Shown one piece after another: positions 804 to 21,162 of a stretch of 27,285 nucleotides of DNA. Both the position numbers and the translations under genes were made by a program. Source of the DNA: Terramyces sp. JEL0728 (Eukaryota; Chytridiomycota; Chytridiomycetes; Rhizophydiales; Terramycetaceae); assembly GCA_027603945.1 (NCBI GenBank), contig JADIIU010000155.1, positions 1 to 27,285 on the forward strand, written 5' to 3'. The number at the start of each line of letters is the position of its first letter. Position 1 is the stretch's first letter. The notes under the pieces are model-generated. The model was not told the origin of the DNA. It did not search any database and was given only the letters and a program-made list of their open reading frames with translations.

Positions 804-3800
804 TTAATCTTCATAAGACTCTAAAGGAGGGCAAGAACAAATCAAATTACGATCACCATAAGTGTCGTCCACTCTGCTAACTGTAGGCCAGAATTTGGAT
901 TTATGGCGCAACAAATTCATAGGATATGCTGCTACAGCTCTGCTGTATGGTCTATCCCAGTTATCCGACATCACAACCTGTTGAGTATGTGGAGCCTTGA
1001 CAAGCACATTGTTATCTTTTGGATACTTGCCGTCAGCTACTTCTTGGATTTCCTTGCGGATAGAAATCATTGCATCGCAGAATCTGTCCAGTTCAGCCAG
1101 AGATTCGGATTCAGTTGGCTCAATCATCAAAGTGTTTGCAACTGGAAAAGACATTGTTGGAGAGTGGAAACCATAGTCGTGTAGTCTCTTTGCAATGTCA
1201 ATCGCTTCAATCCCAGAAGTTGCTTGGAATGGATGGCAATCAATAATAAATTCATGTGCGCATTTGCCATGGTTGTTTGTAAACAACACTTTGTAGTGGT
1301 CTTTGAGACGGTACATCATATAGTTGGCATTCAATAACGCCAATTGAGTAGCTTTTTTGAGGCCGTCGTCTCCCATCATTTTCAAATATGCCCACGAAAT
1401 TGGCAGGATGGATGCTGATCCCCATGGTGCAGCCGAAATTGGCCCAATAGCTTTGTCTCCCCCAGAAACTACAACAGGATTTCCCGGCAAGAACGGACCT
1501 AAATGAGCTTTAACTCCAATTGGACCCATACCAGGACCACCACCACCGTGTGGTATACAGAAAGTCTTGTGCAAGTTCAAATGGCAAACATCAGCCCCGA
1601 TTTCAGCAGGTTTACACAACCCCATTTGAGCGTTCAAGTTTGCACCATCCATATATACCTGGCCTCCATGCTCGTGAATAATTTTGCATGCTTCGGTGAT
1701 TCCTTCTTCGAATACACCATAAGTAGATGGGTAGGTAATCATAGTTGCTGCAAGTGTTTTTTCGTACTTTTTTGCCTTTTCCTTTAAATCCTTTAAATCC
1801 AGGTTTCCTAATTCATCACATTTGACTGTAATTACTTTCATTCCGCTCATGACGGCAGAAGCAGGATTAGTGCCGTGGGCAGAAACTGGAATCAAACATA
1901 TATCGCGATGGCCCTCTCCGATCGATTCGAAATAAGCTTTGATGCAGCGTAACCCTGCATATTCACCCTGAGCTCCGGAATTTGGCTGAAGCGAGACGTA
2001 ATCAAATCCGGTAGCTTCTTTAAGAGCGTACTCCAATTCCCTAAACAAGATTTGATATCCCTCTGCTTGGTCTGTCGGTACGAATGGATGAATATTTCCA
2101 AATTCTGGAAAAGTAACTGGAATCATTTCAACGGTAGAGTTGAGTTTCATGGTGCATGAGCCTAGCGGAATCATTGCGTCTGCCAAAGATAAATCCTTCT
2201 TTTGCAAGTGGTAAAGGTATCGAAGCATATCAGTTTCAGAATGATAAGAGTTAAATACTGGATGTTCAAGATATGGTGTAGTCCTAACCAACTTTTGGGG
2301 GAATGCTTTGGCTCCAATCTCTGGAGTAATGTTTGATGCAGTCGCAAGAATATCGATAGTGTTTGTAGAAACATATGGCGCCTGTCCAGTTCCGTGTTGG
2401 AACGATTCAGTAAAGGAGCTAGAGGCAAACAAATTGATCAAATCAACCAAATCCTGTTTAGTGACAGTTTCGTCGAGGGAAACAGCAACGGTATGTTCAT
2501 CTACTTTTCTGACATTGACTTTGTGATCGGCAGCCTTCTTGATCAAATCGTCGGCAGGATATGTTAACTGAATAGTCAATGTATCAAAGAATGAAGTGTT
2601 TGTAACTTTGTGTCCAAGTGAAATCGCACATTCAGCAAGAATGGCAGTCAAATTGTGGATCCTTTGAGCAATAGCTCTAATTCCCTGGAATTAATATAAA
2701 ATACCTGTGGCCCATGGTAAACTGCGTATAAGCCAGCCATGTTTGCCAACAATGCTTGCGCAGTGCAGATATTACTGGTGGCTTTTTCTCTACGAATGTG
2801 CTGTTCTCTTGTTTGTAAAGCCAAACGGTAAGCTGGGTTGCCTTCTGCATCTTTCGATAACCCAATCAAACGGCCAGGCATTCTCCTCTTTAATGCATCC
2901 TTGACTGCAAAAAAGGCGGCATGAGGACCACCATATCCAAGCGGAACACCAAATCTTTGAGAGTTGCCCAGGGCAATATCAGCCCCAAATTCACCTGGTG
3001 GTTTCAACAAAGCCAAGGACATTAGATCAGTAGCACAAGCAACAAGTGCTCCATGCCTGTGGGCTTCAGCGCAGAACTCTTCATAATCATGAACTTGCCC
3101 GTTAACATTTGGATATTGAACTAGTGCACCAACCACATTTCCGCTGTATTTGCTGAAATCAAACTCTTTGAAATCCTGTACTACAACTTGAATTCCAAAT
3201 CCTTCTGCTCTAGTTTGCACACAAGCAATTGTTTGAGGGAAGCAGTTTGAATCTACGAAAAACACATTCTTCTTTTTGTTTGCGGTGGCATAGCACAACA
3301 ACATTGCTTCCCCTGCTGCCGTTCCTTCGTCCAAAAGGGAGGCATTTGCAACATCCAAGCCGGTCAGATTAGTAACCATAGTTTGATAATTTACCAGTGC
3401 TTCAAGTCTGCCCTGTGAGATTTCTGGCTGATATGGAGTGTACAAAGATTAATATATATCTACCTGTGTATACCACCCTGGATTCTCCATTACATTGCGT
3501 AAAATAACTGCAGGAGTGAGGGAAGCTGAATATCCCAGCCCCAAGTATGATTTGAACACCTTGTTCTTGCTGGCAATCTCCTTGATTCTTTCCAATGTTT
3601 CAGATTCGCTCAAGGCTTTACCCAGACGTGTAGGGTTTTTGATATTGATCGCAGGCGGTACAGTTTTAGAAACCAGATCGTCCAAATTAGACACTCCAAC
3701 CACTTTGCACATGCTTTCAATATTTGATTCATTAGGACCTAAATGTCTTCGTTCAAATGTATCAAGTGCGTCGAAAATTGAAGAACGAGCAATCTTTGCA

Positions 3801-3883
3801 GATGCAAACTGGCGTACATTGCGAGGTCTAGAAGCGGCCTTGGATTAAAAAATTGTTACAACTGATAGAGAGCGACGAAGCAT
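804..3883 (-). CDS. GCV2: Glycine dehydrogenase (decarboxylating), P-protein, mitochondrial
   Basis: PLP enzyme of the mitochondrial glycine cleavage system: decarboxylates glycine and passes the aminomethyl group to the H-protein lipoyl arm. Four exons: 3860-3883, 3464-3838, 2705-3442 and 804-2684, giving 1005 residues, the normal length for eukaryotic P-proteins. The N-terminus (MLRRSLSV, then [15 protein letters not shown]) is Arg/Ser-rich and acid-poor like a mitochondrial presequence. Conserved blocks include [52 protein letters not shown] and the PLP-lysine motif [15 protein letters not shown] (Lys about residue 752). Introns: 3839-3859 (21 nt), 3443-3463 (21 nt, ends TG rather than AG) and 2685-2704 (20 nt, GTATTTTATATTAATTCCAG). 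Removing the last one restores [16 protein letters not shown]. The presequence is split after residue 8 by the first intron. Confidence 0.97.
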
Positions 3884-4195
3884 CAAATATTTTTTAGAAA
3901 AAATTAGGTAAGCCAAATCAGCTGAAAAACGAGCGTGAAAAAAGAAATGTGAAAATTTCCATTTCAAGTTTGATGCAGATGCCAAAACAAAAAGAAGAGA
4001 AATTCAGCCGATGCCGAGATTGTTTGTTTAGCTTTTACTGGGATAATAGGGATCATGTTTGAAGCGATTCTTTAATAACGTAATCGACTCCTATATTTAG
4101 GAAGTGTGGTGATTGAATTATTCATCATGTGTTCAATTAATTGCGAATGATATTGGGTTCTTTGTCATTAGGTGATTCATGCTCTATTTGAAGGC
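3884..4195. other. Intergenic, GCV2 upstream region
   Basis: AT-rich sequence upstream of the glycine decarboxylase start. A-rich tracts lie just 5' of its ATG (on the minus strand). No reading frame, RNA gene or clear TATA box could be supported. Confidence 0.5.
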
Positions 4196-4363
4196 TTACT
4201 TTAGCGAGACCACTTTGTAGTTAACCCATATCGAGTGAAGATGCCAGGCAAGGATGGCTGTGATTCCAAAGGTTATTCCCTTCTTTAATCCTTGCAAATG
4301 TTCATATATTAAAAGTCCGGTGATAAATACTGATGGTTGATTTGGTTTCGCAACTAAACACAT
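4196..4363 (-). CDS. Possible small single-pass membrane protein (55 aa)
   Basis: An ATG-initiated frame of 55 residues begins MCLVAKPNQPSV and contains GLKKGITFGITAILAWHLHS, a plausible single membrane helix preceded by basic residues, with a basic tail. The layout (short basic lead, one helix with G/A spacing, then His) loosely resembles very small respiratory-complex subunits such as cytochrome oxidase VIIa/VIc-type proteins, but the similarity is weak and I do not assign it. It lies only 81 nt downstream of the first NDT80-like gene on the same strand, leaving little room for a promoter. A 19-nt GT...AG stretch at the 3' end could be an intron that changes the last residues. It may be spurious. 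Confidence 0.3.
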   Translation of the reverse strand: MCLVAKPNQPSVFITGLLIYEHLQGLKKGITFGITAILAWHLHSIWVNYKVVSLK

Positions 4364-4444
4364 TTTTTTTAGTTGCAAAACAGTAGTCGGCTCAACTTAC
4401 ATAGCCTCTCCAATGATGATTGTGGAATAAATACAATGGTTTAT

Positions 4445-5340
4445 TTACATAAAGAGTGATTCCACTAGTTGGTCAAAGTATAGAGATTCAGCAGATTGGC
4501 CAAGTGGCTCTGTGAATAAATCAATTGAAGATCGTCGAGCAAATGGGTTTGGCATCACTTTTGGTTGTATCATTTGGATGGTATTTGTAGGTTCACTGGA
4601 ATGAGTGCGAAACGAGGAGTGATCAGCGAATAATTCTGGAACGGGAGAAAACTGGTTTGGAACTAGATAGCTGTTTTCAAAATGACACGTAGACAAAGAG
4701 TATCTGGGATTTACATAAGCAAACGGAACTTGCATTGGTATTTCGCAAATAGTGTTTCTCCGGTCTCTAGGATTCCATTTCAAAGTCGATTCGTACGAAT
4801 CATACTGTGACGGTGTAATAGACAGCACGTTCAACTCTTTGCTGATGAATGTGGAATATTGCACAACCGAATCATCAACTCCAACCAATGAAACCGTCAC
4901 TGCTAACTGTAAATGCGAATCACTTCGGGAATTGATTTTCTTTAGTGGTGTGCTCTTACTGAAATACAGTTTTCTTATTGATATCGAGCTGCTTGGTTCG
5001 ACTGGCATGTAGAATGCTCGGACGAGGTTCATTCCGCTGTCGGTTTTCTGTAGTACTTTGATTTTGTTTGTTATATTTGAATCTGTGCATCTGATTTGGA
5101 CCTTGTACAGCATGGTTGGTGCATTATTGTGAAAGACTGGTGTTGCATCGCTTTTGATATTCAGCGATATCTGGAACTGATTTCTTTTGTAGCAATTCCA
5201 GCTGTTGTTTCTGAACCAAATACCTTTGTTTACAGAGACCGTGATTGAGGGTTCAATCCTAAATTATCTATAAAATACCTTTTTTTGTTTTTATCAGTCA
5301 GATTCAAATCTGTGTTTCGCGTTTGCTCGAAAAAGCTCAT
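4445..5340 (-). CDS. NDT80/PhoG-like transcription factor, copy 1
   Basis: Predicted DNA-binding protein of the NDT80/PhoG (p53-like fold) superfamily, 291 residues. Exon 1 is 5279-5340 (62 nt), the intron 5259-5278 (GTATTTTATAGATAATTTAG, 20 nt), exon 2 4445-5258. Spliced, it begins MSFFEQTRNT and has KGIWFRNNSWNCYKRNQFQ at residues 32-50, the family hallmark (G.....W.CYKRN.F). Further on are FSKSTPLKK, SDSHLQLAV and ELNVLSITPSQY, matching the family's F..aT.nNgKrrA...y..l.v and S..l.v.G.sP..Y blocks. The tail is Ser/Pro-rich and ends ESLYFDQLVESLFM. An in-frame ATG lies 12 nt upstream (5352), but it is only 13-20 nt from the TATA box, so the MSFF start is preferred. It is much shorter than yeast Ndt80 (over 600 aa), essentially the DNA-binding domain plus a tail. 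Confidence 0.85.
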
Positions 5341-5364
5341 GTTGATTGGCATTCTCACAGGGTG

Positions 5365-5388
5365 TTTATATACATGCACAGTCACATG
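5365..5388 (-). promoter_or_regulatory. Promoter of NDT80-like copy 1: CATGTGA element and TATA box
   Basis: On the minus strand CATGTGACTG (element at 5382-5388) is followed after 9 nt by TATATAAA (5365-5372), with the ATG 25 nt further on. The same arrangement occurs ahead of copies 2 and 3, which is the main support. Confidence 0.55.
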
Positions 5389-6205
5389 TTTGGCTCCAAC
5401 TTATAAGATTTGCGTTTCACATCACAGAGCGCAAGTCGCGAACCAATTTACCTTTTAATGAATCCGTATAGGCCGGTTTATCTTTGTTTCTACTAATGCG
5501 TGGTAGCAGCCTCTCGAAACCAATGTTATTCTATCTCCATTTTATTTGTAAATTGCGTGTCATGTTTCATGTTCAATCCCTCCCTGAAAACAAACCGAAT
5601 ATGGGCATGCATAATTCAGGCTATGCTATTCCGATTATAGTAGCATCAGCCCGTCTGTTTCCAAATAAACACTTTTTCACCAACTATCCGTCTGCTTTAC
5701 CGGCAATATCCTTCATTTGTCCAAAACACACTTTTCTGGGACTGAATTATCCAACCCTGACCCTGCAACCATAGAAACCAAATAATGAATCTATATGATG
5801 GGCTTACCATTTTTTCAAGGGGCCCTGTTGACATAATGCTAGCCAGAATGTCGTTTGAAAGGTTATTACAACGAAACACTGTTATCTGCGACAGATTTTA
5901 CACCAAATGTTAATCCAGGATATGGCGATCTGAAACCCCACGAAATCTTAGGTCTTTGATCAAACAGATGTATTTCCCAGGCTTAATCAGGTGTTGAAAC
6001 CTATCAATGTCACAACCGTTTCATTTGGTAAACAAATTATACGAGTTGTTCTCATCGTGACGTTAAATGATATCCAAACTTTCAAATATCCTGCAGATTT
6101 TCAAATATATATTTACCAGATGGCAGTGCAGTCCTACCTTCAGTTGGTGTAAATTTAGAAGCCCAATGCTTCGATTAAACCCATTATTTGCAGTTGTAAA
6201 TCAAT
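5389..6205. other. Intergenic between NDT80-like copies 1 and 2
   Basis: About 800 bases with no supportable gene. The open frames here (longest about 96 codons, 5484-5774) have no recognisable motif and no compositional sign of coding. No RNA gene was seen. Confidence 0.5.
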
Positions 6206-6921
6206 TTATTGAGGTTCATATGAAAATGTCGGTAATATATATTCTCCACGCGTAGAATCATAATACTGCAGATCAGGAAAGGTAGGAAATCCAAATTGAG
6301 ACATGAATTCGTCAAGTATAGTTTCGCTAGTTGGCTTATATTCCGGAATACAGTCTGGGTGAGTTAAAGAATCCACAGTGGAACAATTTGTTTCATTTGA
6401 AATCTTTAAAGAGGCAGCTGGAGTAAATACATTCAAGTTTTCACTGGTAAACGTAGCCAGCTTGTACGCTTGATCTTCTTTTCCAATAACCGATATTCTT
6501 GCAACCAAATGGAAGGGGATATTGTATTTCAAAGAATTGGTGGTCCTGCTGATATGGATTTTGGGAATTGTAATTGTGCATGTAGATTCAGCGGTCATAT
6601 AAACTGGCGTAACTGCTTTCATTCCACGATTGGTCTTGCGGTGGATTTGAATATTGCCATCATTAGTGCAAGCTAGCTCAACCTTGTACAGCAAAACAGG
6701 ATGGTTCTTGAAATAAATCGGGCTAGAATCCGTGTCGATTACTACCATTACTTGAAACTGATTTCTTTTGTTGCAATTCCATTTGTTGTCTTCAAACCAG
6801 ATGCCTTTTCTTGGGACCACAGTAATCTTTGGAATCACACTAAATTAATAGAATATTACGAATCACCATTGGCATCTACCAGGTTTAAATCATTGAGCAA
6901 AGTTTGCTTGAAGAATGGCAT
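6206..6921 (-). CDS. NDT80/PhoG-like transcription factor, copy 2 (divergent)
   Basis: 231 residues from exon 1 6860-6921 (62 nt) and exon 2 6206-6839, separated by a 20-nt intron 6840-6859 (GTAATATTCTATTAATTTAG). It starts MPFFKQTLLN and has RKGIWFEDNKWNCNKRNQFQ, so the Tyr of the family signature CYKRN is Asn here. The central block is the most altered of the five: the usual F...TP.nK is IHISRTTNSLKYN, the SD.YFQL strand is replaced, and the LS.TP..Y block has become FTPAASLK. SENLNVF remains. The tail holds SETILDEFMSQFGFPTF, a short acidic/hydrophobic segment. An upstream out-of-frame ATG overlaps the start (ATGCATGCC). It may be a degenerating or specialised paralog; DNA binding cannot be assumed. 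Confidence 0.8.
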
Positions 6922-6943
6922 GCATGGTTCTAATGATATCAAC

Positions 6944-6970
6944 CATTTATAGATTTGTTTCAGTCACATG
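6944..6970 (-). promoter_or_regulatory. Promoter of NDT80-like copy 2: CATGTGA element and TATA box
   Basis: On the minus strand CATGTGACTG (element at 6964-6970) precedes TATAAATG (6944-6951) by 12 nt; the ATG is 23 nt further. The ten bases CATGTGACTG are identical to copy 1 at nearly the same distance from ATG (43-49 nt versus 42-48 nt). Confidence 0.55.
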
Positions 6971-8243: not shown

Positions 8244-9115
8244 ATGAGTTTCTTTACACAGACTCAAGAAATCACCCTGTCCCTCGTTGATATCAACAAC
8301 CACCCGTAATAATTTCTAATCCCAGTGTGATTCCAAATATAACAGTGGTGCCAAAAAAAGGAATCTGGTGTGAGGATAATACATGGAACTGCTACAAACG
8401 AAACCAATTTCAGCTAACTGTCAATATCGATTCTGTTCCCCACTTGTTTTATCACAATACACCAATTGTAAAGTTCAAGATTGACATATCTTGCAGCGAT
8501 GTGTTGGATTCAAAGAAACTATTTGTCCAGCAAAAAACAAAACGCAGAGTCGAACGTGTACAGCCAGTGTTTTTACACTTGGATTCAACAAGCAAGATTA
8601 CTATTCCAAAACTGCAATTCAATAAAAGTACTCCGTCAAACAAGAATAGGAACCTTAGCGATTCGTACTTTCAATTGGTTGTCAACATTTCTGTGGTTGC
8701 AGGTGATGACACTGTGTTTCCACTAACTGCATTTTCAAGCGAAAATTTAAATGTATTGTCTTGTACTCCTTCGCAGTACCGTGTTGAAAAGTATCACAGT
8801 ACCAGGTATTATTCCAGCAATACGTCCAATCTGGCAGGTTGTAAATTTAATGAATTTGCTAGAAATCACTCACCACCTAATAGTGATGCCTATTCTCCCG
8901 CACTAGACTTTTTTGAATCTATTCATAATGCTGCTTCCCCTATTTCTGGCGAGGGCAGTCAGTCGCCAAATTACTCTCTCACACTGGACGGCTCTTCAGA
9001 TAATTCACTTTTAAATTGCAACTCAATTTTTACAAATGAAGGGACGGCAGTAGCGCATATAGACCCTATTGATTCAATGGTATACAATTTCTTACTGGAA
9101 CCATTTTGTAAATAA
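8244..9115 (+). CDS. NDT80/PhoG-like transcription factor, copy 3
   Basis: 283 residues. Exon 1 8244-8305 (62 nt), 20-nt intron 8306-8325 (GTAATAATTTCTAATCCCAG), exon 2 8326-9115. Starts MSFFTQTQEI; KKGIWCEDNTWNCYKRNQFQ occupies residues 31-50. The later blocks are intact: FNKSTPSNKNRNLSDSYFQL and SENLNVLSCTPSQY, agreeing with NDT80/PhoG DNA-binding domain signatures. A linker rich in Ser, Asn and Pro follows, and the protein ends IDSMVYNFLLEPFCK. Together with copies 1 and 2 it forms a divergent trio. The expected role is nuclear sequence-specific DNA binding, by analogy with Ndt80 and vib-1 proteins; the targets are unknown. Confidence 0.87.
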
Positions 9116-9379: not shown

Positions 9380-10157
9380 ATGTGGAACCCTCAGTTTATA
9401 GCCAGTACAGTGGAATTCGCAGTTTCAAGCACAAACATAATATTCACTGTTATTTATTACTGGAGACGGCAATTAACCATTATTAATTACTGGCATATCG
9501 TATTCGGACTAGTGCTCTTGAGCAACCAGGTAGTCACAATGGCTATGGCACTAAATGGACATTCAACAGAGTACTGCTTCATGTGGTATCTACAAGTAAA
9601 TCTTGTTAAAATAGGGAATAACGAAAAATATTGCTGAAGCGAGTATTGACTGGATATTTACTTTGCGAGTGATATACCTGGAACAGTCATATTTGGTGAG
9701 ATACACTTGGATGGGGTTGTTTGTAGCAATGGACGCACTACCAAGGATAATTGGGCAGTTTTATTACAAGACTACAATGCAAGTTTCCGGCCAATGTTTG
9801 TTATATCAGCCGCAGCTGCCCAGCTTGGTAAAGACTGCACTTGGAACGATATTTATAGGTGCCGTCGCGATATGTTTTGCTGTTCAGATTGTAAAATTAA
9901 TACAAACATCAAATGGCGGCCTTGGGGTTCAGCGACTGGAATCGCTCACTGTAACATCTATCGGGTTTGCCCTTGCTCTATGTCTAGTACGTACGGTGAT
10001 TGGGATTCCGTTTATTTTGGACATTTGGCCGACTGTCACTCCATTGTTGATTCCTATTGAACTCACAATCTTGCCTCCTCTGTGTTTCTTGAGCATCGCA
10101 TACGGAAGCAGGTTAAAAGTCAATCTTTTTCCTAAATTAAATAGCAACGGAATATAA
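9380..10157 (+). CDS. Seven-transmembrane protein, GPCR-like, unassigned
   Basis: 252 residues from exons 9380-9595 and 9615-10157, joined by removing a 19-nt intron (GTAAATCTTGTTAAAATAG, 9596-9614), which turns YLQ into YLQ-GITKNIAEASIDW without a frame break. Seven hydrophobic segments can be marked at about residues 6-28, 36-58, 66-92, 102-122, 141-166, 178-202 and 210-232. Cys66 at the start of helix 3 and Cys133 in the loop before helix 5 match the position of the canonical GPCR disulfide. There is no opsin-type lysine motif or recognised fungal pheromone-receptor signature, and the loops are very short. An in-frame TAG directly precedes the ATG. It ends 15 nt from the stop of the convergent Nop9 gene. 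A receptor role is inference; it could also be a small transporter-like or TMEM-type protein. Confidence 0.7.
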
Positions 10158-10172
10158 TTTATACCTCAAAAG

Positions 10173-12274
10173 TTATTTATTCTTTTTAGCAAACAAATCA
10201 TCAATCTCGTCACTCTTCTTTTTTTCCTTTCTTTCCTTCTTTTCCTTCTTTTGATGTTCCAACCATTCGTCTTTACGTTTTTTAAACAACTCCACATTGC
10301 AATTTCTCAAAATAAATTTAGCATGGAAATTTGTAGACAAGACTGTATACTTGTCCGCCAGTTCTTGTGCAATCAATTCTTTCAACTCGATATTGGATGC
10401 TGCCCAGCACTTGTCAACGAAATGGGAGCCGTACTTGTCCTGTGCTAATCGAACAAAAGACTTTTCAAACACCTTAATTAACTGTCTCTTGGACTTGTTT
10501 GGAGCAGTCTCGCTACTTAAAACCGCTTCAAGAATTCTGGAAGCTGTTGGGTCAGATATCCACAAATTCAAAGTAGTAGGAGGACAAAGTAGTATACTAT
10601 CCACTATGGTTTTCGAAATTTCTGGCTTAAAGTTTAATAAATGTTGCAGCATCAAAGCACCTTGGACATTTGGCAAGTGAACAAAAATCTTTTGTTGGAA
10701 TTTCTACATTAATATTAATTACTTCAAAGGTCCGCATATGCAAAATTAAGTTTGCCAATTCCTTTCTGCGTTCATCATCTGTTGCATGGAAAGCAGAGTA
10801 AATAGATTCAGCACAAACAGTTTGGCAATTAGGATGCTTTTTTGCAGTCTCCAATATCTTTACAACTATCCCAGCCCGATTTCCAGTCCCGACTGCGTTA
10901 AAAAATATTACAAATAAAGTCTTCGAATTGCGCTGACAATATATCAAGAATCTCTTTGAATTGCTTCTCTTTGTGGCAATTTTCTATTACTTTTTGCACC
11001 ACAAAATTAGCAACCGGATGCTGGCATAACTGTAACAATCGCGGCTGGAAGAAAGTCTTGTACAGATATCTAAATTGAGGTGATGATGAATGTTTAATGA
11101 TTTTCTCCATCAAGTGTGACCCAACCCTGTCTTGAATCAATATTTTCACAAATTCATTGGGATCTTCCCCTCCATGCAACAGAGTCTTCACCAACTCTTC
11201 GCCAGATTCAGGAATCGCAACTAGCAACTAATATCAATAAATATTACCTGCAATACAGGGTTAGCAACTGGATGCGAAGCCAGTGTTCTAATATCACAGT
11301 GTTTCAATCCCTCACAAACATCGCCGACAACTTTTCTCAATTTATCACTAAAGCTTTTTGGTACTAGCCGGTTCTTTTTCGACACCTATAGAATTAGTAT
11401 CCGTCAATTCCTATCTAACCATAAAATTATTGTGATTTTTGTTATAATTTGCAGATTTCTTACTCCTGATTTGGCCTTCTTCGACCAGGGATTCTCCTGA
11501 TAAAACATTTAACAATGTTCTGACCAAGAAAGAAGCATACGAGTGAGTCATGTATTCGTTCCACCTGTGCGCAATTTCATCAGTGATTCCCAAAACTAGC
11601 TTTTCAATGGTGGGCAAGTCAGGATCAACTTCTTCTTCCTCGTCATTCTTTGACAGTCCTTTTATCGAAATTAGTCAAATATTACTTCTCTTTCAATAAC
11701 ATCCGCAGAGAGGTTCAAGAGTGTTTGGCAAACATGGGAAGCAAATTGATGTTCAAAAAGCGTCTGGAAATTCCCGCAAAGCCGGCTAAAAAATATGCGA
11801 ATTTGATAGTCAGACGAGGATTTGAGCAACTTTTCCAAGATACGAGACCCTTCAAAGTCAGTTGCCAATTGCGATTCTTTTCCTTGCACTTCATTCAACG
11901 CATTTGAAATGAATAAATATTGGTCTAGTTAAACCAAATATACCTTGTGGAGATTCGAATTCTTGAGTTTCTAGCAAGTTTTCAATATTTTGGAAATACT
12001 GGCGGGTTTCTAAATCCAATAATTCTTGCTGTTCAGGTTCCAAGTCACCATGGCTATCAATGACCCAATCAATATCCTTGGCAGGTTCCAATTCAGGTTC
12101 AATTGCAGTTTTTCCCTTTTTTGAACGTCTAGTTTTTTTTCTAGGTTGCTCTTGTTCATCCTGGATTTCACTTTGCACCTGTTCTTGAACATTTTGAAGT
12201 TCTGCTTCTAGTTCCTGTTTCTTGTCTTTTCCACCTCTCTTTCCTCTCTTGCGTTTCTTGTATTCAACTTCCAT
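10173..12274 (-). CDS. NOP9: Nucleolar pumilio-repeat protein Nop9
   Basis: RNA-binding protein needed for 40S subunit and 18S rRNA maturation in the nucleolus (known for the yeast family). Seven exons, about 656 residues, close to yeast Nop9. It starts MEVEYKKRKRGKRGGKDKK, a basic nucleolar-type N-terminus. The Puf-repeat region has ESQLATDFEGSRILEKLL, HQFASHVCQTLL, MTHSYASFLVRTLLNVLSG, SHPVANPVLQ-LLVAIPE, DRVGSHLMEKII, HPVANFVVQKVIENC and KYGSHFVDKCW; the C-terminus is Lys-rich (KKEKKERKEKKK). Introns: 11925-11943 (19), 11666-11685 (20, ending CG, or a 38-nt AG-ended alternative at 11648-11685), 11386-11419 (34), 11228-11247 (20), 10893-10911 (19) and 10704-10722 (19, stopless so far as read but frame-shifting). 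Each removal reconnects Nop9-like sequence. Confidence 0.92.
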
Positions 12275-12424: not shown

Positions 12425-13194
12425 TCAACTAATAAGGATTTCAGGAAACAAGTCCAGTAAGAATACATCGAGCGAAACGTCAGTAGTACCGGGGATGAAA
12501 TTAAGAGGTTGCACATCAGCTGGATGTTCAGGATTTGGCCCCTTGCCCGCAAATTGATCCCCAAGCCTGTCAAGATTAAAGTTCCAATCAACAGCGCTAT
12601 AATTCAAGTTTGGCTTTTCAGATTGCCGCTTAAATTGTCGATCAAGTTTGCCAATCGTATATTTGGCAGGTGTACCGGACAGCACATTTAGGTTTTCACT
12701 GGTGAGCGTTGCCAGGTGATAAACTGAGTTGTTGGCACAAACAATGGTCACGGTTACAATCAGCTGAAAGTAGGCATCAGATAGGTTGCGATGTTTGTTT
12801 AGTGGGGTGCACCTGTTAAATAAAAGTTTTGGAATAGTTACAGTACTCGTAGATTCGACTGGCATGTAAACGGGATGTACATTTTCAATTCCGCCTTTGG
12901 TCTTTTGCTTTACTTGCAGCTTATTGCAATCCAGGATATTGGAACACGATACGTGAATTTGATACTGAGAGCCTGGTTGATTATGGAGATATACTTTTGA
13001 AGCAGCTTTAATTTCAATAGAAAGTTCAAACTGATTCCTTTTGTAGCAATACCACTCTCCATTATTGAACCAGATGCCTTTTGTTGCGGAGCCGTTGACA
13101 ATAGCTGTAACACTACTTTAATATGCTATTACGTGTTGTAATTTTCATCGGAAACTACTAAATCACTGTTCTGGATTTCCTTGAAAAAGCTCAT
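12425..13194 (-). CDS. NDT80/PhoG-like transcription factor, copy 4
   Basis: 249 residues. Exon 1 13133-13194 (62 nt), 20-nt intron 13113-13132 (GTAATAGCATATTAAAGTAG), exon 2 12425-13112. It begins MSFFKEIQNS; TKGIWFNNGEWYCYKRNQFE is at residues 31-50. The later blocks are well kept: FNRCTPLNKHRNLSDAYFQL and SENLNVLSGTPAKY. It has a short tail ending DVSLDVFLLDLFPEILIS. An in-frame ATG two codons upstream (13200, giving MPMSFF) is an alternative start. No CATGTGA-TATA module was found directly upstream; instead three AGGGTTCA copies lie within about 115 nt of the start. It sits 3' to 3' with nothing nearby except Nop9, 150 nt downstream on the same strand. Confidence 0.87.
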
Positions 13195-13725: not shown

Positions 13726-14262
13726 ATGTTCAAAGCAACCGTCTTTACTCTCTTGACTCTCGTCCTCGCTAAAGGAAGCAACATCCAAACCTGTACTACT
13801 GTTTGTGTCAACACTGGATCTCAACAATCTGGTGGTTGTTCAGGGACTAGTGATCCAAACGCATGTCAAGCAGGAATCAGCCATGCTGCTAATGAATGCA
13901 CCAACCAATGTACTCAAACCGGAACCACCAGTGGACACAAGCGCAAACGTGCTCTTTCAAACGCAATGTCAAATGAGCACTTGCAATCCATTGAAAACTC
14001 CATAGTAAAGCGCGATGGTTGCTACTACTCCCAAGTATGGAACATGAACGTATGTTTGAACTACGACGACATGATTGCTTTGGGAAGAGTCGTTGGTCAG
14101 CCATGTAACTGGGACAACAATGGTCAACAAAAGTGTGTCGGTGACAAAGGTTTCGTTACTTGCGATAACGGCCAATGGTCTATCAAGCAACCTTGTGGTT
14201 CTGGAACAAGATGCCAACCTTACCCAACTGACCCAAATAACCATGTTTTATGTGGTTGGTAG
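13726..14262 (+). CDS. Secreted cysteine-rich protein with CBM19-like chitin-binding C-terminus, copy 1
   Basis: 178 residues. The start MFKATVFTLLTLVLAKG is a signal peptide, which favours this ATG over a non-ATG upstream extension. The mature protein has a Cys-rich N-terminal part (TCTTVCVN ... CSGTSDPNACQ ... ECTNQCTQ), a very basic linker KRKR, a second dibasic site VKRDGC, and a C-terminal module QPCNWDNNGQQKCVGD..FVTCDNGQW....PCGSGTRCQPY...CGW. The spacing of that module (C..NG...C..G.wv..pC..GT.C...C) resembles family 19 carbohydrate-binding modules, known to bind chitin. Kex2-type cleavage after KR is likely and would release the module. No catalytic domain is present. No intron. Convergent with NDT80-like copy 5. 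The paralog is at 18491-19030. Confidence 0.8.
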   Translation: MFKATVFTLLTLVLAKGSNIQTCTTVCVNTGSQQSGGCSGTSDPNACQAGISHAANECTNQCTQTGTTSGHKRKRALSNAMSNEHLQSIENSIVKRDGCYYSQVWNMNVCLNYDDMIALGRVVGQPCNWDNNGQQKCVGDKGFVTCDNGQWSIKQPCGSGTRCQPYPTDPNNHVLCGW

Positions 14263-14330
14263 AAAGCAATTAGAATTCAATAAACAAAGTTACTTTAGTG
14301 TGGTTTATTTAGGAGAATGAATGTGATTAT
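14263..14330. terminator. Shared 3' region of convergent genes with polyadenylation signals
   Basis: The 68 bases between two convergent stops carry AATAAA on the plus strand (14279-14284) and TTTATT, i.e. AATAAA on the minus strand (about 14304). The transcripts almost certainly overlap or abut. Confidence 0.5.
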
Positions 14331-15137: not shown

Positions 15138-15561
15138 TGATGAAATTATGTAGAGATCTGTGGGCTGGCTTTTTCAGATGCTTGTCCAAATAAGGTAATT
15201 GACAAGTGATTTACCTTGAGATTATCTGCAACGGCAGATTCAACGTTCACATCCCTGTAGCAGCGTATTCCTTTGGATTGTCTTTTCGATTACTGCAATC
15301 GGTAGGGGCTGTATTCTATCAAGCCAGTCCCGAGTTTATTGTGGATTCAATATAGGGTAAAATCCATCGGTATTGCTTTGCCAATCATTTTCTATTTTGG
15401 AGAGTAAGTTTATTGCTGAAACAGGCCATGAGCAGTGGTAGACTGCCGAATTACACCGAGCAAGATACCTGCTGCAATTCTATTTTACTTGCTCAAACAC
15501 CAAAGATTTGGTTGCAATAGTTTCCAACGAAACTCGTAATTTCAAACCAAAATATATATTT
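15138..15561. other. Intergenic, upstream of NDT80-like copy 5
   Basis: 424 bases between the copy 5 start and the 3' end of the vacuolar protease gene (both minus strand). No gene, RNA or repeat was recognised. Confidence 0.5.
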
Positions 15562-18183
15562 TCAAAGAGATTGTTCGATTCCTAGCCGGATACTGCAATT
15601 ATCATACAGATATGGAAAAGCTTTTCCAGACTTGCAGCGATCCGTCTGGCCTTCCACGAGGTGTAGTCCATGTAGGCAATTTAGCCAGCCATTCCATTCC
15701 TTCAGGGGACTGTTCGGCCATCGGGTAAACACAATTAACGTCAAACGCCAGTACACTTTGATTGTTGTTCCTGATATGCATTGGTATAGTGATCTGGTTT
15801 CCTTGCAATTGTCTGCGATACACCTCAATGTAGCTGTAGTAGTATATCGGACCTTGGTTGTAGTTTGTCCAATTTTGTTGCTCATTGAGTAAAAAGAAGG
15901 TTTTGCTGGATTAATAAGCATGTACCTATCGTCGGATGATACCTGACAGTATCTCGCGGCAGGGGGGCCAGTAATATCCACCTGCCATCCATTTCTTCCA
16001 TTCAAAGTCAGCGTTTGCACATTTGCCTGGATCAAAGCAGTTACATCTGCTGTGTTATCCAAGCCTAGGGGATATTTGGTGGTGTTAAATAGAACATGTT
16101 GATTATTGTAAAAAGATGTGAGTTGAAATTTTGGAGGCAACGAATCTCCTGCTTTAGACGACCATGTATGGGGGTCCATTATCGCGGGGAACCCAAGAAT
16201 AGACAGTTGATACTCAATGTATCCGTCATTAGCAGTTGTGTTTGTAGTGATATCCCAAAATTGAAGCGGTGTGATATGGACTGGTTGTTCGCTGGAATAT
16301 GGAAAAATACAACATCCACAAATCCACAAAGCAAGGAATACCATAAAGCTGGCAATTGCTGGATATAAAGTTTGTAGTTTAGCAATTACTGGAATGACAT
16401 TGGTCATGTATAGTAACAAAGGTGCCATGAAAAACACATCCACAATATACGAAGGCAGCCCTTCAACTAAAGATGAGGGAAAGAATGTAATAAACATGTG
16501 CGTGAGGTCGACACTGATTAGGAATGGAATTGAAGATGACACAGCCAAGATAGTAATCCATCTAAATTTTTGCACGGGTTTGAAGGTCGATAATACATAT
16601 CCAGCAGCATAATAATAAGTCCAATCAAATAGAAAATACGCAACCATCAATTTTTGGGCAGTAGCAACAATGGCAAGCAACGTAACAAGTGCCCAAAATA
16701 TCAAATTTGATGCAAACAAATAGTCCGAGATTTGCTCTTTCCTGTCGATTTCCTCGTCATCCGTAGACTCTTTATCTAACCCAGACTCAACGGATCCGGG
16801 AAGTAGATTGTACTTGGCGACGAAAAACCGATCAACAACATAATTCATTCCAAAGGCAATTGCAAATACCAAAAATACACTTGAAAAGTAGGACAACAGA
16901 GACATTCCATAAGTAGATCCTTTGTTGATTGTATTTCTGGCCATAGATAATAAAGCTACACTTCCAAATGACAAAACCCAAAACAACATCGTGTACAAAA
17001 CCCCAAACAAGTATGGTTTGTAAAAAGCCCAGGTTTTCATGTCTTTTCCTTGAATAAACCCAGTGGTAAACAAAATACCGATTAATACACCAACTACAAT
17101 TGAACTGAAAATGAAAAACACTGTTTTGCTGTACATGATTGCAATAACACCCACAACGTCATGGAAAAAGAACCCAGGTGTTGCCGACCCAGAATTGCCT
17201 TCATTACCAATACTAGATAAAAATGCACGGTCATTTGCGACTGACAAAATGCCAGCATACAAGTTGTCAGCCATGTACTGCGTGGAATAAACACTTGCAT
17301 GATCAAAATCATCTTTAGTAGAATGGTATACGTATCTGTTTGTATAGAAAGCATAATCACTTCCAGGCACTCCATTTTCACCGTAAATTTGCCAATCCGT
17401 AATGCTTCCAGAGAATTTACCAACGATTTCTTGTGCCATGATGGAAGCATGGACAAATGGAGTAGAGTGCATCAACCGATAGTTTAATGAATAATGATTA
17501 GTCCTGAACAGCAAACTCCGCTCATACCCAGCGCCTCCTGTTCCTTCAAGGTTGATAAATCCTTTAACATCTTTAAACCACGGATGCAAAGAGAACGCCA
17601 TCCCGCCATACAGCCCCAACTCTTCTCCGTTATTGAAATTAAAAATGATATCTGCTTGTAACGGACTAGTGCAGGTTTTCTTGGCAAGCGAATATAAACT
17701 GGAAATCATCGAACCAATCCCAATACCATCGTCAGTGACACCAAGACTGAAATCAACGCTGTCGAAATGCGCAGAGACCAGCAAAGCGTCCGACGATTGT
17801 CCTTTAACCCTAACCAACACATTGTTGGATTCAAAATAAGTAACACCATAAGACATGTTTGTAGCATCGAATTCCAATTGAAATTCAGCTGAACAGTTCA
17901 TTGATTTGCGCATATCTTGAATGCTGTTGATTTCATCGATAATCAGCTGTCTGACTTTCAAGTTTTCTTGACTTGCATATGTGTGAGTTTTGTTTATCAT
18001 TTGATGCAAAAAGTCCCAAGCGTACTGTCCAGACACATTATCCCCGTCAATTTGACTTTTTGCAGTGATTGACCTTGGGTAGCCCCATAGCGAAAGGATA
18101 CTGTAGCGCAGTCCTATTACAACACTAGTGAATACAACAACCACGAGCGATACGTATACTTGCTTCATGACAGACTTTTCCAT
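15562..18183 (-). CDS. PFF1: Vacuolar membrane M28 metalloprotease (Pff1-like)
   Basis: 873 residues from the chosen ATG. N-terminal membrane helix (about residues 8-26), then a lumenal M28 zinc peptidase domain: SAHFDSVDFSLGVTDDG (His139, Asp151/152), FNFNNGEELGLYGG (Glu187 base, Glu188), NLEGTGGAGYE, PGSDYAFYTN and YHSTKDDFDHA. About eight further hydrophobic segments (residues about 345-620) precede a C-terminal lumenal domain. This order is the fungal vacuolar membrane protease (yeast Pff1) architecture and length class. The family's presumed role is proteolysis in the vacuole lumen. The frame is open upstream to 18327, with an in-frame ATG at 18267 adding 28 residues (MWFRVTNILLIPFQ). 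I prefer 18183 because the helix follows directly and the context ACCCATGG is good, but 18267 remains possible. No introns. Confidence 0.93.
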   Translation of the reverse strand: MEKSVMKQVYVSLVVVVFTSVVIGLRYSILSLWGYPRSITAKSQIDGDNVSGQYAWDFLHQMINKTHTYASQENLKVRQLIIDEINSIQDMRKSMNCSAEFQLEFDATNMSYGVTYFESNNVLVRVKGQSSDALLVSAHFDSVDFSLGVTDDGIGIGSMISSLYSLAKKTCTSPLQADIIFNFNNGEELGLYGGMAFSLHPWFKDVKGFINLEGTGGAGYERSLLFRTNHYSLNYRLMHSTPFVHASIMAQEIVGKFSGSITDWQIYGENGVPGSDYAFYTNRYVYHSTKDDFDHASVYSTQYMADNLYAGILSVANDRAFLSSIGNEGNSGSATPGFFFHDVVGVIAIMYSKTVFFIFSSIVVGVLIGILFTTGFIQGKDMKTWAFYKPYLFGVLYTMLFWVLSFGSVALLSMARNTINKGSTYGMSLLSYFSSVFLVFAIAFGMNYVVDRFFVAKYNLLPGSVESGLDKESTDDEEIDRKEQISDYLFASNLIFWALVTLLAIVATAQKLMVAYFLFDWTYYYAAGYVLSTFKPVQKFRWITILAVSSSIPFLISVDLTHMFITFFPSSLVEGLPSYIVDVFFMAPLLLYMTNVIPVIAKLQTLYPAIASFMVFLALWICGCCIFPYSSEQPVHITPLQFWDITTNTTANDGYIEYQLSILGFPAIMDPHTWSSKAGDSLPPKFQLTSFYNNQHVLFNTTKYPLGLDNTADVTALIQANVQTLTLNGRNGWQVDITGPPAARYCQVSSDDRYMLINPAKPSFYSMSNKIGQTTTKVRYTTTATLRCIADNCKETRSLYQCISGTTIKVYWRLTLIVFTRWPNSPLKEWNGWLNCLHGLHLVEGQTDRCKSGKAFPYLYDNCSIRLGIEQSL

Positions 18184-18490
18184 GGGTAAATTATTCTCTT
18201 TTGTTCTATTTTTGTAACATTTGTCCTGAAAAGGAATCAACAAAATGTTTGTGACACGAAACCACATTCGAACATGCAAACCATCGCAAGAAAGACTCTC
18301 GGCAACGTACTTGATGAAAGTGCTCAATTATCTAGATGCAATAACATTTATCCCAACTGTCGTGCCGGTCGAATCGGGTAGCCTGAAATAGATAAAACTT
18401 GCAGTGATCAAATATGGATAAAAACCACATTGAATTCGCACGGACCAGCAAATAGCAGGTACAAATAAAGCTGCAATTCTCCAGCGTGTA
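18184..18490. other. Divergent promoter, PFF1-like and CBM19-like protein 2
   Basis: 307 bases between divergent genes. No convincing TATA box on either side and no RNA gene. Part may be coding if the upstream PFF1 start at 18267 is used. Confidence 0.5.
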
Positions 18491-19030
18491 ATGAAATTGG
18501 TCTACCTGATTGGCCTTGTACTAGCAAAGACACATAGCACACGACAAGACTGTTTAGCTGCGGCAGACCAAACTCAAGCCGATGGCGATAACCAATGCCG
18601 CCAGTTAGTGCAAAACAATCCACCGGTATTAAACAAGTGCCTTCAAGGTGTTCAAATGGCTGCAGATAAAATTAGAGACACTTGCAACCAAACAAACCCA
18701 ACAAAGAAACGTAAGCGGAGCACAGCAGTCAACCTCTCTGACCATGAATTGCACCGTATCAATAACAATTGGACAAAGAGAGACCAGTGTTGGTGGTCTA
18801 ATGTCTATAACATGAATATCTGTTTGAATGTGAATGATATGATTGAATTGGGACAGAAAGCTTCGGAAACTTGTAATTGGGATAACAATGGGCAGCAGAA
18901 ATGTGTGAATGATAAAGGCTTCATTACTTGTGTTAACAATCAATGGACTGTTGAACAATACTGTGGGTCTGGGACAAAATGTCAGCCTTATCCCACCGAT
19001 CCAAATAACCATGTACTTTGTGGGTATTGA
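18491..19030 (+). CDS. Secreted cysteine-rich protein with CBM19-like chitin-binding C-terminus, copy 2
   Basis: 179 residues, paralog of 13726-14262. Signal peptide MKLVYLIGLVLAKT. The N-terminal part has Cys residues in a different arrangement (QDCLAAA, NQCRQLV, NKCLQGV, DTCNQT) and looks helical. Then come KKRKR, a helix-like spacer, TKRDQCWWSNVYNMNICLN, and the C-terminal module TCNWDNNGQQKCVND..FITCVNNQWTVEQYCGSGTKCQPYPTDP. The second half is much better conserved between the paralogs than the first. The two dibasic sites (KRKR, TKR) are retained, supporting Kex2-type processing. It converges with the GH5 gene (81-nt gap). Likely secreted and wall- or chitin-associated; no enzyme activity is predicted. 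Confidence 0.8.
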   Translation: MKLVYLIGLVLAKTHSTRQDCLAAADQTQADGDNQCRQLVQNNPPVLNKCLQGVQMAADKIRDTCNQTNPTKKRKRSTAVNLSDHELHRINNNWTKRDQCWWSNVYNMNICLNVNDMIELGQKASETCNWDNNGQQKCVNDKGFITCVNNQWTVEQYCGSGTKCQPYPTDPNNHVLCGY

Positions 19031-19110
19031 ATAAAAGATTGCAGACGTTTAAAAGGCTTTTAATTGACAGCCAATATCTCAGTAATAATCAAATGAACAG
19101 ATAAACAAAT

Positions 19111-20403
19111 TTATGTAGTCAAATCTTCCACTTGTTTGGACTTGTACGCATTCCATTCAGTATTAAGGAGCCCATAAGTCTCAATATCACCAAACTTGTG
19201 CCCAGGTCTGAACGGAGACTGAGTGCCATCAATAGTCCAAATAGACCAATGCGTATTAGTCCTAGCTTTGATCATAGGCACAATCAAATCCCACCACTGT
19301 CGATCTCTATCAACTGTCAAATCGCCATTGATTTCGCCTAGGAAGAGTGGTGCAGTGTCCAGGACGTGGAAGAATCGTTCGATTGCTTCTTTGCGGTAGG
19401 TTGGTCCATCCAAACTCATGTGCAAGAATGAATAGTCATGGCAAGAGTAAACCACCCTGTTCTTTGGCTCGATGCCGTACTTTGTTATATCTGGGACCAC
19501 ATCAGCAAAATTGTGCGCTCTTGTATCATTCAAATTCAATGCTTTCAAGTACAAGATAGTCGAGGTGTATTCGACTGGGTTGAATGTTGGCAAATCGTAG
19601 ATGCCGCCCATACTAATCAGCATGTTTGGGTTAACATTGAGAATCCTGTTTGTCGCGGTTTGCGCAGCAGCTCTCCAGCTTACTTGAGATGTCTTGTACC
19701 CCAAAAGATGCATTAAAGGAAAGATTTGTTGCTGAGCTTTTTTTCGCTGATCGTCCCAGTAAACGCCAACAATAGTGTTGTTGATTGCAGAGCCTCTGAC
19801 TTCGTTACGTAAATCAGCCATGACAACCATCGGATTGTCAAGGAATGTACCGACCATCTTTTCCCATTGTTCAAACCACAATTCTTCAGTGTAGCCAACA
19901 TCATTGAACCATATACCATTGTTATCTTTTTCAGAACAGCAAAAAGAAGCAACGGAAACGTGGTTGTCAAGGATAACCATAATATTAGAGTCAGTCAACG
20001 CTTTAACTACCATTTGGTAGGCTTCAAACGGAGTCTTGCCCAATAACGACGGCTCTTTTGTAATATACTGCGGATCAATTGGTTGTTGGCGGTAAACCAT
20101 TTCAGTAGAGTAGGCAAACCGGACGCAGTTGAATTTTTGTGCAATCAAATCAATAATATTTTGCATTGAATTGATATTCAGCCCAGTAGCAACGTACCCT
20201 TTCATATGGAACCCAGCCCATTCTACACATTGCAATCTGATTGGTAAACCATACTTGTCGACGATATTGTTGCCTGCTACTGAGAGGGGGACTTTATCTT
20301 TCCATGCTGCGGAAGTGTAAGGAGGAACTGCAGGGTTGGTTGTAATTGTTTCGGTTGATGGTGGGATACCTCCTAAAACAGCAGCAATCAACAAGGAAAG
20401 CAT
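19111..20403 (-). CDS. Secreted glycoside hydrolase family 5 protein
   Basis: 430 residues with a signal peptide (MLSLLIAAVLG). A GH5 (beta/alpha)8-barrel is indicated by GLPIRLQCVEWAG (residues 52-64), VILDNHVS (143-150), the acid/base motif ADLRNEVRG (Asn200, Glu201), SCHDYSF (His322, Tyr324) and the nucleophile motif FLGEING (Glu357), then WSIWTIDGT. These are the expected positions of the two catalytic glutamates and supporting residues. The residue after NE is Val rather than the Pro common in cellulases, as in some less studied GH5 subfamilies, so the substrate (glucan, mannan or glycolipid sugar) cannot be stated. No cellulose-binding module, no intron. It acts outside the cell or at the wall. 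Confidence 0.9.
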   Translation of the reverse strand: MLSLLIAAVLGGIPPSTETITTNPAVPPYTSAAWKDKVPLSVAGNNIVDKYGLPIRLQCVEWAGFHMKGYVATGLNINSMQNIIDLIAQKFNCVRFAYSTEMVYRQQPIDPQYITKEPSLLGKTPFEAYQMVVKALTDSNIMVILDNHVSVASFCCSEKDNNGIWFNDVGYTEELWFEQWEKMVGTFLDNPMVVMADLRNEVRGSAINNTIVGVYWDDQRKKAQQQIFPLMHLLGYKTSQVSWRAAAQTATNRILNVNPNMLISMGGIYDLPTFNPVEYTSTILYLKALNLNDTRAHNFADVVPDITKYGIEPKNRVVYSCHDYSFLHMSLDGPTYRKEAIERFFHVLDTAPLFLGEINGDLTVDRDRQWWDLIVPMIKARTNTHWSIWTIDGTQSPFRPGHKFGDIETYGLLNTEWNAYKSKQVEDLTT

Positions 20404-20438
20404 TTAATCTATACTATGGAATGGAATTATTGTGCAGT

Positions 20439-20446
20439 ATTTATAA
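20439..20446 (-). promoter_or_regulatory. TATA box of the GH5 gene
   Basis: TATAAATA on the minus strand, 36-43 nt upstream of the ATG at 20403. Confidence 0.55.
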
Positions 20447-20807
20447 TGATCCTTTGGGCTGATTTAATCTGGTCATTGCCAAATTTGGCCAAGAGTTTCA
20501 GATCAGCGAAATATTAAAAGCGATTTCGAATGAAACTGGAGATACTTTGGAGAGGTGAATTGGATTCGTAGGGCGGAAGTATTCACACTATACCCTGATA
20601 TCCGTGATTATTTAGGCAAACATCAATGCGCTCGCAAATGCATTTGCAGGATGTGGCCAGTGATTGAAGGGACCTAAAAGGGTAATCATAAAAATTCGAA
20701 TTCCAGCATCTTAAGGACCTGTCAACTGATTGAGGCTAGATGGGCTTCTCTGTCATTGAATCACTCCTTTAATGCAGCTTGAGGAATTATTATCTGTACG
20801 GAACAGT
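20447..20807. other. Intergenic, GH5 upstream region
   Basis: About 360 bases between the GH5 promoter and the 3' end of the coiled-coil gene. No coding frame, RNA or repeat was identified. Confidence 0.5.
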
Positions 20808-21162
20808 TTATTGTAAAATACTGAGCAGATTCTTGTTGATTTTCAGTTTGGAATTCAAAACCACTTCAAACTCGTTAACCAGCGAATCCAGCTCCAAGGG
20901 ACGATACTCTTCAGTTTCAAGCAGCTCTGAAATGCAACTAAATCAGAAATAGTTACTCGTCAATCGCCATGATTTCATCCAAGAGTCCTTTCTGTGTTTC
21001 TTTGATTCTGCTTATTTCCAATTCAATATCTTGCAGGTCTTTTTCAATAACGTCAAAATGAGGGTCAAAGGAAGATATTTCTTTGACTTTGCTCCACTGT
21101 GCTTTGAATGATTTCTTTATTTTATTGGTGTGCTTGGTTTTCAACTTTACTAGGATATCCAT
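20808..21162 (-). CDS. Small predicted coiled-coil protein (111 aa), unassigned
   Basis: Exon 1 20957-21162, 19-nt intron 20938-20956 (GTAACTATTTCTGATTTAG), exon 2 20808-20937; total 336 nt, in frame. The protein starts MDILVKLKTKHTNKIKKSFK, basic, then has heptad-like leucine/isoleucine spacing in VIEKDLQDIELEISRIKETQ (about residues 38-57), continuing into an acidic segment SELLETEEYRPLELDSLVNE and ending NKNLLSILQ. Without the intron the frame stops after 69 residues; with it the helical pattern continues, which supports splicing. Size and shape recall small subunits of tethering or kinetochore/BLOC-type complexes, but no family is recognised. Confidence 0.65.

Follow-up and report, generated by a model that had tools for sequence, protein, structure and literature searches.

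The introns of the chytrid fungus Terramyces sp. JEL0728 (Chytridiomycota, Rhizophydiales) are, very probably, normally only about 20 nucleotides (nt) long. We studied a stretch of 27,285 nt (contig C155, positions 1 to 27,285; hereafter the window) together with further parts of the same genome, which has 15,016,339 bases in 231 contigs. The predicted introns start with GTAATT or GTATTT, carry a branch motif CTAAC or TTAAT with its A at position 14 or 15 and end, usually in AG, 5-6 nt further on. We propose that they are ordinary GT-AG spliceosomal introns which, throughout the genome, would have been reduced to an almost constant length of 19-22 nt. The window was read up to position 21,600, and its open reading frames were listed over the full length. 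A preliminary description of the window had listed sixteen introns in nine genes and taken them to be spliceosomal and of the usual size. All sixteen could be placed (Table 1), and the wider claim agrees with the length peak, the held-out loci and the RPC1 gene presented below, splicing itself being deduced. There are five introns of 19 nt, eight of 20 nt, two of 21 nt and one of 34 nt; the counts given before were right for the 19-nt and 34-nt introns, whereas those for 20 nt (seven) and 21 nt (three) had to be changed. Fourteen of the introns are GT-AG, one is GT-TG and one is GT-CG. In its various runs the gene finder detected 13 of these introns; the remaining three we positioned manually by restoring the reading frame.

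The gene finder was applied to the window plus 200 kb (20 stretches from 14 contigs). Its coding model was trained on the sequence itself, the prior on intron length was flat between 12 and 120 nt and introns were defined by their end dinucleotides with no other motif. For the unrefined run the coding model was derived from intron-free open reading frames of at least 200 codons. With GT-AG ends we obtained 99 introns, 49 of which were 17-23 nt long, compared to 5-8 out of totals between 76 and 113 for six decoy pairs of dinucleotides. The model was then refined in three rounds on its own GT-AG predictions. In the refined run 62 of the 100 GT-AG introns had 17-23 nt, and the seven decoy pairs gave 10/81, 8/101, 9/93, 6/86, 8/92, 3/88 and 8/88 (Fisher p at most 5e-12 against each of them). 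For the longer introns GT-AG stayed below the level of the decoys, with 17 versus 38-57 introns at 24-60 nt and 19 versus 25-35 at 61-120 nt. The introns thus form a narrow class below ~25 nt, as in genomes known for ultra-short introns, and the lack of an excess in the longer bins suggests that nearly all introns belong to it. The same motif-free test on 20 held-out loci (64 kb) pointed in the same direction: 12 of 32 GT-AG introns had 17-23 nt and the seven decoys gave 1-5 of 26-33, with 13 GT-AG introns at 24-60 nt (decoys 7-16) and 6 at 61-120 nt (decoys 8-18).

When the motif learned from the 18-23 nt calls was scored as well and the length prior was kept flat, the gene finder reported 202 introns, 157 of them at 17-23 nt and 45 at 24-120 nt. 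After removal of overlaps this run comprised 124 genes with 200 introns in 163 kb of coding sequence, or ~1.2 introns per kb, and 80 of the 124 genes had at least one intron; some of these calls are false. In the window it wrongly placed introns of 78-117 nt in NDT80-like gene 3, the coiled-coil gene and a DUF4360 gene, and it bridged the TG and the CG intron with introns of 81 nt and 38 nt.

Several points weigh against our proposal. The total number of introns does not separate GT-AG from the decoys (GA-AT gave 113 introns in the unrefined and 101 in the refined run), and the total score of GA-AT was even slightly higher in the unrefined run (4618 versus 4610). As the totals are alike, many calls must be false with any dinucleotide pair, and only the peak at 17-23 nt is specific to GT-AG. 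The held-out test is weak and of low power, since the best decoy reached 5/33 next to 12/32 for GT-AG. One intron of the window has 34 nt, and because several of the 45 calls at 24-120 nt are plainly wrong where they fall in the window, true longer introns cannot be counted. The lengths and the geometry in the restricted run described below are partly built in by its settings. Finally, splicing in vivo is deduced here from sequence.

Draft assemblies contain errors and, as just stated, the gene finder makes many false calls, so that broken frames and chance GT..AG strings have to be considered as the source of the presumed introns. We give this explanation, which the preliminary description had itself raised, next to no credit. 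It does not account for a peak that appears with GT-AG and not with the decoys, for a common donor and branch that nobody asked for, or for inserts of 19-22 nt which carry the motif and lie between exons colinear with orthologues. For the RPC1 gene the restricted run predicts nine introns of 19-22 nt. In the alignment with five chytrid proteins every one of these junctions falls at a colinear site, and no additional segment requires removal; the junction near codon 1003 sits in a variable stretch. The protein is 95% identical over 93% to that of Boothiomyces sp. JEL0838 (both genera belong to the Terramycetaceae, Rhizophydiales). The first two sites are missing from the Boothiomyces model and from P0127, and Boothiomyces is colinear at seven of the nine sites (a comparison of proteins only). 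We also noticed that the public Boothiomyces model (P0121) is without the first ~100 residues, the region that holds the GT-TG intron and a 19-nt intron in Terramyces; the truncation may be due to introns predicted at this N-terminal end.

Each removal had been said to restore a conserved protein. This held by Pfam homology for seven of the 16 window junctions (two in the glycine decarboxylase gene GLDC and five in Nop9); the other nine lie beyond domain matches and are based on frame and motif. Residues 38-465 of the spliced GLDC match positions 1-429 of 429 of Pfam GDC-P across two junctions. In the spliced Nop9 a single match of residues 125-610 to PUF_NOP9 (1-514 of 514) spans five junctions; it contains gaps and is therefore not a residue-exact test of each junction. 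Three of the nine genes with introns had no Pfam match (the membrane protein, the coiled-coil gene and NDT80-like gene 2).

Natural variation told against errors as well. The loci L023 (contig C199) and L024 (contig C111) are near-identical: apart from 20 substitutions they differ by five internal indels and a sixth that is an end effect. Three of the internal indels are intergenic. The other two each change the length of a predicted tiny intron by 1 nt, in two genes that lie on opposite strands and whose coding exons are free of indels. In both cases one copy of the intron has 21 nt and the other 20 nt, and by the branch motif it is the first spacing that changes from 15 to 14. The direction of the substitutions in this pair is mixed. 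A second near-identical pair, L046 (contig C30) and L047 (contig C33), differs by 14 substitutions, 13 of which are G/C in L046 and A/T in L047, as under directional mutation. The occurrence of both pairs on separate contigs suggests uncollapsed haplotypes or recent duplication.

The donor GTAATT/GTATTT and the branch TTAAT/CTAAC emerged in the chosen introns without having been specified. Among the 54 introns of 19-22 nt in the motif-free set, 50 contained a good branch-like word, and in 41 the branch A was found at position 14-15 with a tail of 5-6 nt. To judge by these predicted branches, two spacings add up to the intron length, that between the 5' end and the branch A and that between the branch A and the 3' end. 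The restricted run admitted introns of 18-23 nt and no others, and it scored a branch only if this lay at positions 14-16 and left a tail of 4-7 nt. The 220 AG introns obtained consisted of 55 of 19 nt, 107 of 20 nt, 35 of 21 nt, 19 of 22 nt and 4 of 23 nt; those of 21 nt are probably undercounted because an in-frame 21-nt intron without a stop can be missed. A strong branch was present in 183 of them; in 148 of these the A lay at position 14-15 and was followed by 5-6 nt, and the two spacings showed no dependence on each other (Fisher p 0.18). When any start was allowed, 13 of 232 introns did not start with GT; five of these start with GC and four of the five look good by eye.

These properties are those of U2-type introns, which have a GT (rarely GC) start, an AG end and a branch able to pair with the GUAGUA of U2: among eight pairs of ends GT-AG alone produced the peak at 17-23 nt, and the TTAAT/CTAAC consensus is accompanied by an intact U2 stretch. 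We propose that U2 would form its normal pairing with the branch and that the two short spacings would fix the intron ends. The 3' end would be picked largely by its distance from the branch, which is plausible; AG would therefore be strongly preferred, but TG or CG at the right distance could serve.

The ends other than AG were studied by allowing any 3' dinucleotide and giving AG a bonus. Of 236 introns with a GT start, 220 ended in AG, six in TG and one in CG, and nine were spread over seven other dinucleotides, so that TG exceeds this noise with p about 1e-4 in this first set. The seven TG and CG cases are found in different genes: GLDC, Nop9 (CG), dynamin, RPC1 and a condensin-like, an INTS4-like and a PRCC-like gene. 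Four of these junctions (GLDC, Nop9, dynamin and RPC1) are colinear with homologues. The GLDC sequence TQYTPYQPE runs unbroken in all 10 homologues that cover the site (12 examined), a Pfam match and a PDB alignment both continue across the dynamin junction, and the RPC1 junction is gap-free in two of the three orthologues covering the region (P0124 differs). The alternative is that the tiny introns are real but all end in AG, with the TG and CG cases representing base errors, minor alleles or wrong calls, and we put the chances of this a little below even. Homologues support four of the seven cases and no more, and single-base assembly errors could be the cause of individual ones. In 17 held-out loci (55 kb) the restricted run made 86 calls, of which 75 ended in AG and 11 did not; none of the latter was TG where ~2 were expected (p 0.13), and for comparison the first set has nine non-AG calls besides TG and CG among its 236. 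With the two sets combined, TG exceeds the noise only modestly (p 0.005). TG and CG together amount to 7 beside 295 AG, or ~2.3%. According to the accessible part of PMC7072748, the minor splice-site pairs of fungi make up 0.257% on average when all are taken together, a figure taken from annotated genes and hence a different measure.

The preliminary description had proposed to inspect U2 and U2AF. The U2 small nuclear RNA was found with 140 bits, and its branch-pairing stretch GUGUAGUAUCUGUUC is intact. A U2AF65-like locus scored 251.7 bits where the model requires 310.3, a shortfall probably caused by introns within the locus; weaker RRM matches appear even in two bacterial controls. Slu7 (139 and 104 bits) and Prp18 (109 and 55 bits) are both present above the cut-off. 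Isy1 was also found, and so was a Cwc25-like protein, which starts with MGGGDLNLKKSW and keeps the glycine start. U1 was not found by a search that matched none of its 14 controls either, and U6 was not found by its core pattern with up to three mismatches; a shorter U6 pattern with one mismatch gave seven matches compared to five in the reversed control, and Rfam reported no U6 in those seven loci. No conclusion can be drawn from either absence. The U6 covariance matches were rejected as false, as they are located in the coding sequence of two near-identical loci. At its own cut-offs Rfam reported nothing in the window.

Sequences eliminated from ciliate DNA are of similar size, and one could imagine that the segments are removed by such DNA elimination or by an editing-like excision instead of by the spliceosome. 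Fungi, however, are not known to have an additional, somatic nucleus such as ciliates possess. The GT start, the AG end and the CTAAC-type branch are spliceosomal marks, and U2 and splicing proteins are present; we regard a non-spliceosomal removal as extremely improbable.

The start of the Isy1 gene (L045, reverse strand) deserves a separate remark. With AG ends only, it can be read with full-motif introns of 20, 20 and 21 nt separated by exons of 1 nt and 3 nt. An alternative with a 20-nt and a 44-nt intron is in frame as well; yet another structure was picked by the gene finder. The resulting N-terminus looks unlike what we take to be the usual form, and the gene structure is uncertain.

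Prp18 and Slu7 are of interest for the short tail. According to the accessible part of PMC10711555, yeast Prp18 favours 3' sites at least 10 nt away from the branch, deletion of its conserved loop raises the use of non-consensus 3' sites, an AUG included, and neither Prp18 nor Slu7 is needed for substrates whose 3' site lies a short distance from the branch. The loss of both proteins, which could be expected from this dispensability, was ruled out by their presence, and so was a loss of the Cwc25 glycine start of the kind described for Stentor. We compared the Prp18 of Terramyces with 118 other homologues, which are the ranked matches of one search minus P0241 and P0242; many are Agaricomycetes by name and few are chytrids. 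In the loop, whose extent we assume from the yeast protein, D275 occurs in none of them (113 have T), K283 in three, E284 in none, Q285 in four and A286 and V288 in none. P0242, from a relative with 79% identity, has D275, K283, E284 and Q285 too, but not A286 and V288.

In our proposal Slu7 and Prp18 are kept, and the diverged loop, whose yeast counterpart supports the 10-nt minimum and YAG fidelity, may permit the spacing of 5-6 nt. Such a role of the loop is possible but doubtful, because equally rare residues occur beyond it: L262 and A296 in three of the 118 homologues each, and F297, R302 and Q319 in none. The argument from the loop sequence also rests on one lineage. A wider proposition appears somewhat more doubtful still: in Terramyces and close kin the 3' site might be set mainly by a ruler of 5-6 nt, with UG and CG used constitutively at ~2%, by means of a rebuilt Prp18 loop, and with Slu7 and Prp18 kept where Stentor appears to have dropped both. 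Drift or relaxed constraint is a likelier cause of the Prp18 divergence than an adapted loop, and we give it an even chance. The introns would be real, but the short branch-to-3' distance would need no adaptation, in line with the dispensability of Prp18 and Slu7 on such substrates (PMC10711555) and with the rare residues outside the loop. What drift explains less well is that the core with GNAAWPIGV and GIHER is kept while T275, S283, A284, R285, E286 and I288 change, and that the relative shares four of the new residues.

The Prp18 gene itself contains two tiny introns, one of which, placed by hand, is a 20-nt GC-AG intron near the end. The public model P0241 uses neither. Of its 402 residues, 388 are found in exact pieces in the DNA of the locus and the first 14 run off the locus; an upstream stretch is joined to locus base 973, which fuses PF01894 to the protein. 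Near the end ~53 bases are removed instead of the 20-nt intron, deleting GNAAWPIGVDSV, which is mostly kept in the 11 other homologues shown. P0242 has seven extra residues exactly at the site of the GC-AG intron, which is what we infer an unspliced 21-nt intron would give.

The following comparisons refer to the accessible parts of the papers cited. One of the closest resemblances is to Stentor coeruleus, a ciliate with introns of 15-16 nt that are likewise of a fixed tiny size, AU-rich and of the major GT-AG type (PMC9505925). In Stentor the branch A is fixed at position 10 or 11, the tail has 5 nt and the branch is said to have no strong consensus, whereas in Terramyces, a fungus, it takes 14-15 nt to reach the A of a clear TTAAT/CTAAC. 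For Stentor, PMC9505925 lists Slu7 and Prp18 among the factors that were not found, which is not known to hold generally, and the glycine motif of Cwc25 as missing; Terramyces has both proteins and the glycine start. The mikrocytids (PMC10245619) also have many uniform tiny introns (16-17 nt) with conserved sequence, but they are reduced parasites; the Terramyces genome has 15 Mb, and in the 227 kb analysed the intron calls, some of them false, come to ~1.2 per kb of coding sequence. The introns of the chlorarachniophyte nucleomorph (18-21 nt) nearly cover the range of Terramyces, but they belong to a relict algal nucleus and not to a fungal nuclear genome (PMC10245619). Paramecium and Nyctotherus, again ciliates, have a narrow short class too, which is a few nt longer at ~25 bp (PMC5014332).

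The short branch-to-3' distance had been taken to imply an unusual geometry of the spliceosome. By itself it does not, as short distances have been reported for Stentor and, in fixed form, for several yeasts, Trichomonas and Giardia (PMC2483917). In those yeasts the branch is likewise anchored near the 3' AG, but the introns are few and much longer overall (e.g. in Yarrowia; PMC2483917), whereas in Terramyces the whole intron has ~20 nt and introns are common. More unusual in Terramyces are other features, namely, for a fungus, the distance of 14-15 nt between 5' end and branch A, the small number of TG and CG ends and the retained Prp18 with its diverged loop.

In the literature examined, introns this short have so far been reported only outside the fungi, in ciliates, mikrocytids and the nucleomorph, and the lengths in Terramyces are near the shortest known in any organism. 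Introns of ~20 nt as the norm of a fungus were not reported in the titles and abstract beginnings among the matches listed, which is no proof that they are unpublished, as most subscription journals are outside the coverage. The accessible part of a survey of fungal introns (PMC8476143) mentions no such lengths, and the accessible parts of two chytrid genome papers contained no relevant intron lengths. None of the nine papers matched by genus or strain name contained JEL0728. A large survey left out introns under 30 bp (PMC10639083). Gene models and read mappers with a minimum intron length can fail on such introns, as the public Prp18 model of Terramyces does. A 15-Mb fungus that has the second-step factors offers a system nearer to yeast for studying how the spliceosome handles a loop of 14-15 nt and a tail of 5-6 nt, and it allows one to test how the Prp18 sequence, the smallest branch-to-3' distance and the requirement for AG are connected.

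Table 1. Genes and predicted introns in the window (positions of the window; a slash marks the junction in the restored protein; tail, nt from branch A to 3' end).
Feature	Position	Strand	Remarks
GLDC (glycine decarboxylase) gene	804..3883	-	3 tiny introns; spliced protein 1005 aa
GLDC intron, 20 nt, GTATTTTATATTAATTCCAG	2685..2704	-	removal restores an 11-residue stretch within Pfam GDC-P
GLDC intron, 21 nt, GTAGATATATATTAATCTTTG	3443..3463	-	TG 3' end; branch A 15, tail 6; restores WYTQ/YTPYQPE
GLDC intron, 21 nt, GTAACAATTTTTTAATCCAAG	3839..3859	-	N-terminal leader; placed by hand; beyond Pfam match
NDT80/PhoG-like gene 1, intron, 20 nt	5259..5278	-	placed by hand from restored frame
NDT80/PhoG-like gene 2 (6206-6921), intron, 20 nt	6840..6859	-	gene without Pfam match
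NDT80/PhoG-like gene 3 (8244-9115), intron, 20 nt	8306..8325	+	Pfam PF05224 match stops short of junction
Predicted membrane protein (9545-10157), intron, 19 nt	9596..9614	+	placed by hand; gene without Pfam match
Nop9 gene	10173..12274	-	6 introns; spliced protein 656 aa
Nop9 intron, 19 nt	10704..10722	-	gene finder; Pfam match spans junction
Nop9 intron, 19 nt	10893..10911	-	gene finder; Pfam match spans junction
Nop9 intron, 20 nt	11228..11247	-	gene finder; Pfam match spans junction
Nop9 intron, 34 nt	11386..11419	-	sole longer one in window; gene finder; Pfam match spans junction
Nop9 intron, 20 nt	11666..11685	-	CG 3' end; branch A 15, tail 5; residues 125-269 match PUF_NOP9 1-145, equal lengths
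Nop9 intron, 19 nt	11925..11943	-	gene finder; beyond Pfam match
NDT80/PhoG-like gene 4 (12425-13194), intron, 20 nt	13113..13132	-	Pfam PF05224 match stops short of junction
M28 peptidase membrane-protein gene (15602-18183), intron, 20 nt	15906..15925	-	beyond M28 domain match
Small predicted coiled-coil gene (20808-21162), intron, 19 nt	20938..20956	-	motif-scored flat-length run chose a 93-nt intron here; gene without Pfam match

Apart from the introns, the window shows several groups of related genes. Between 4445 and 15137 we recognised five NDT80/PhoG-like genes by eye on both strands; four were scanned, of which two attain the Pfam cut-off, a third narrowly misses it and the fourth has no match. 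A row of four similar intronless secreted proteins is encoded at 22869-26586, and the one that was scanned matches DUF4360. The proteins encoded at 13726-14262 and 18491-19030 are related, cysteine-rich and likely to have signal peptides, with a common C-terminal half; the first has no Pfam match. The GH16 protein at 21571-22743 carries a tandem glycine-rich repeat ahead of its hydrophobic C-terminus.

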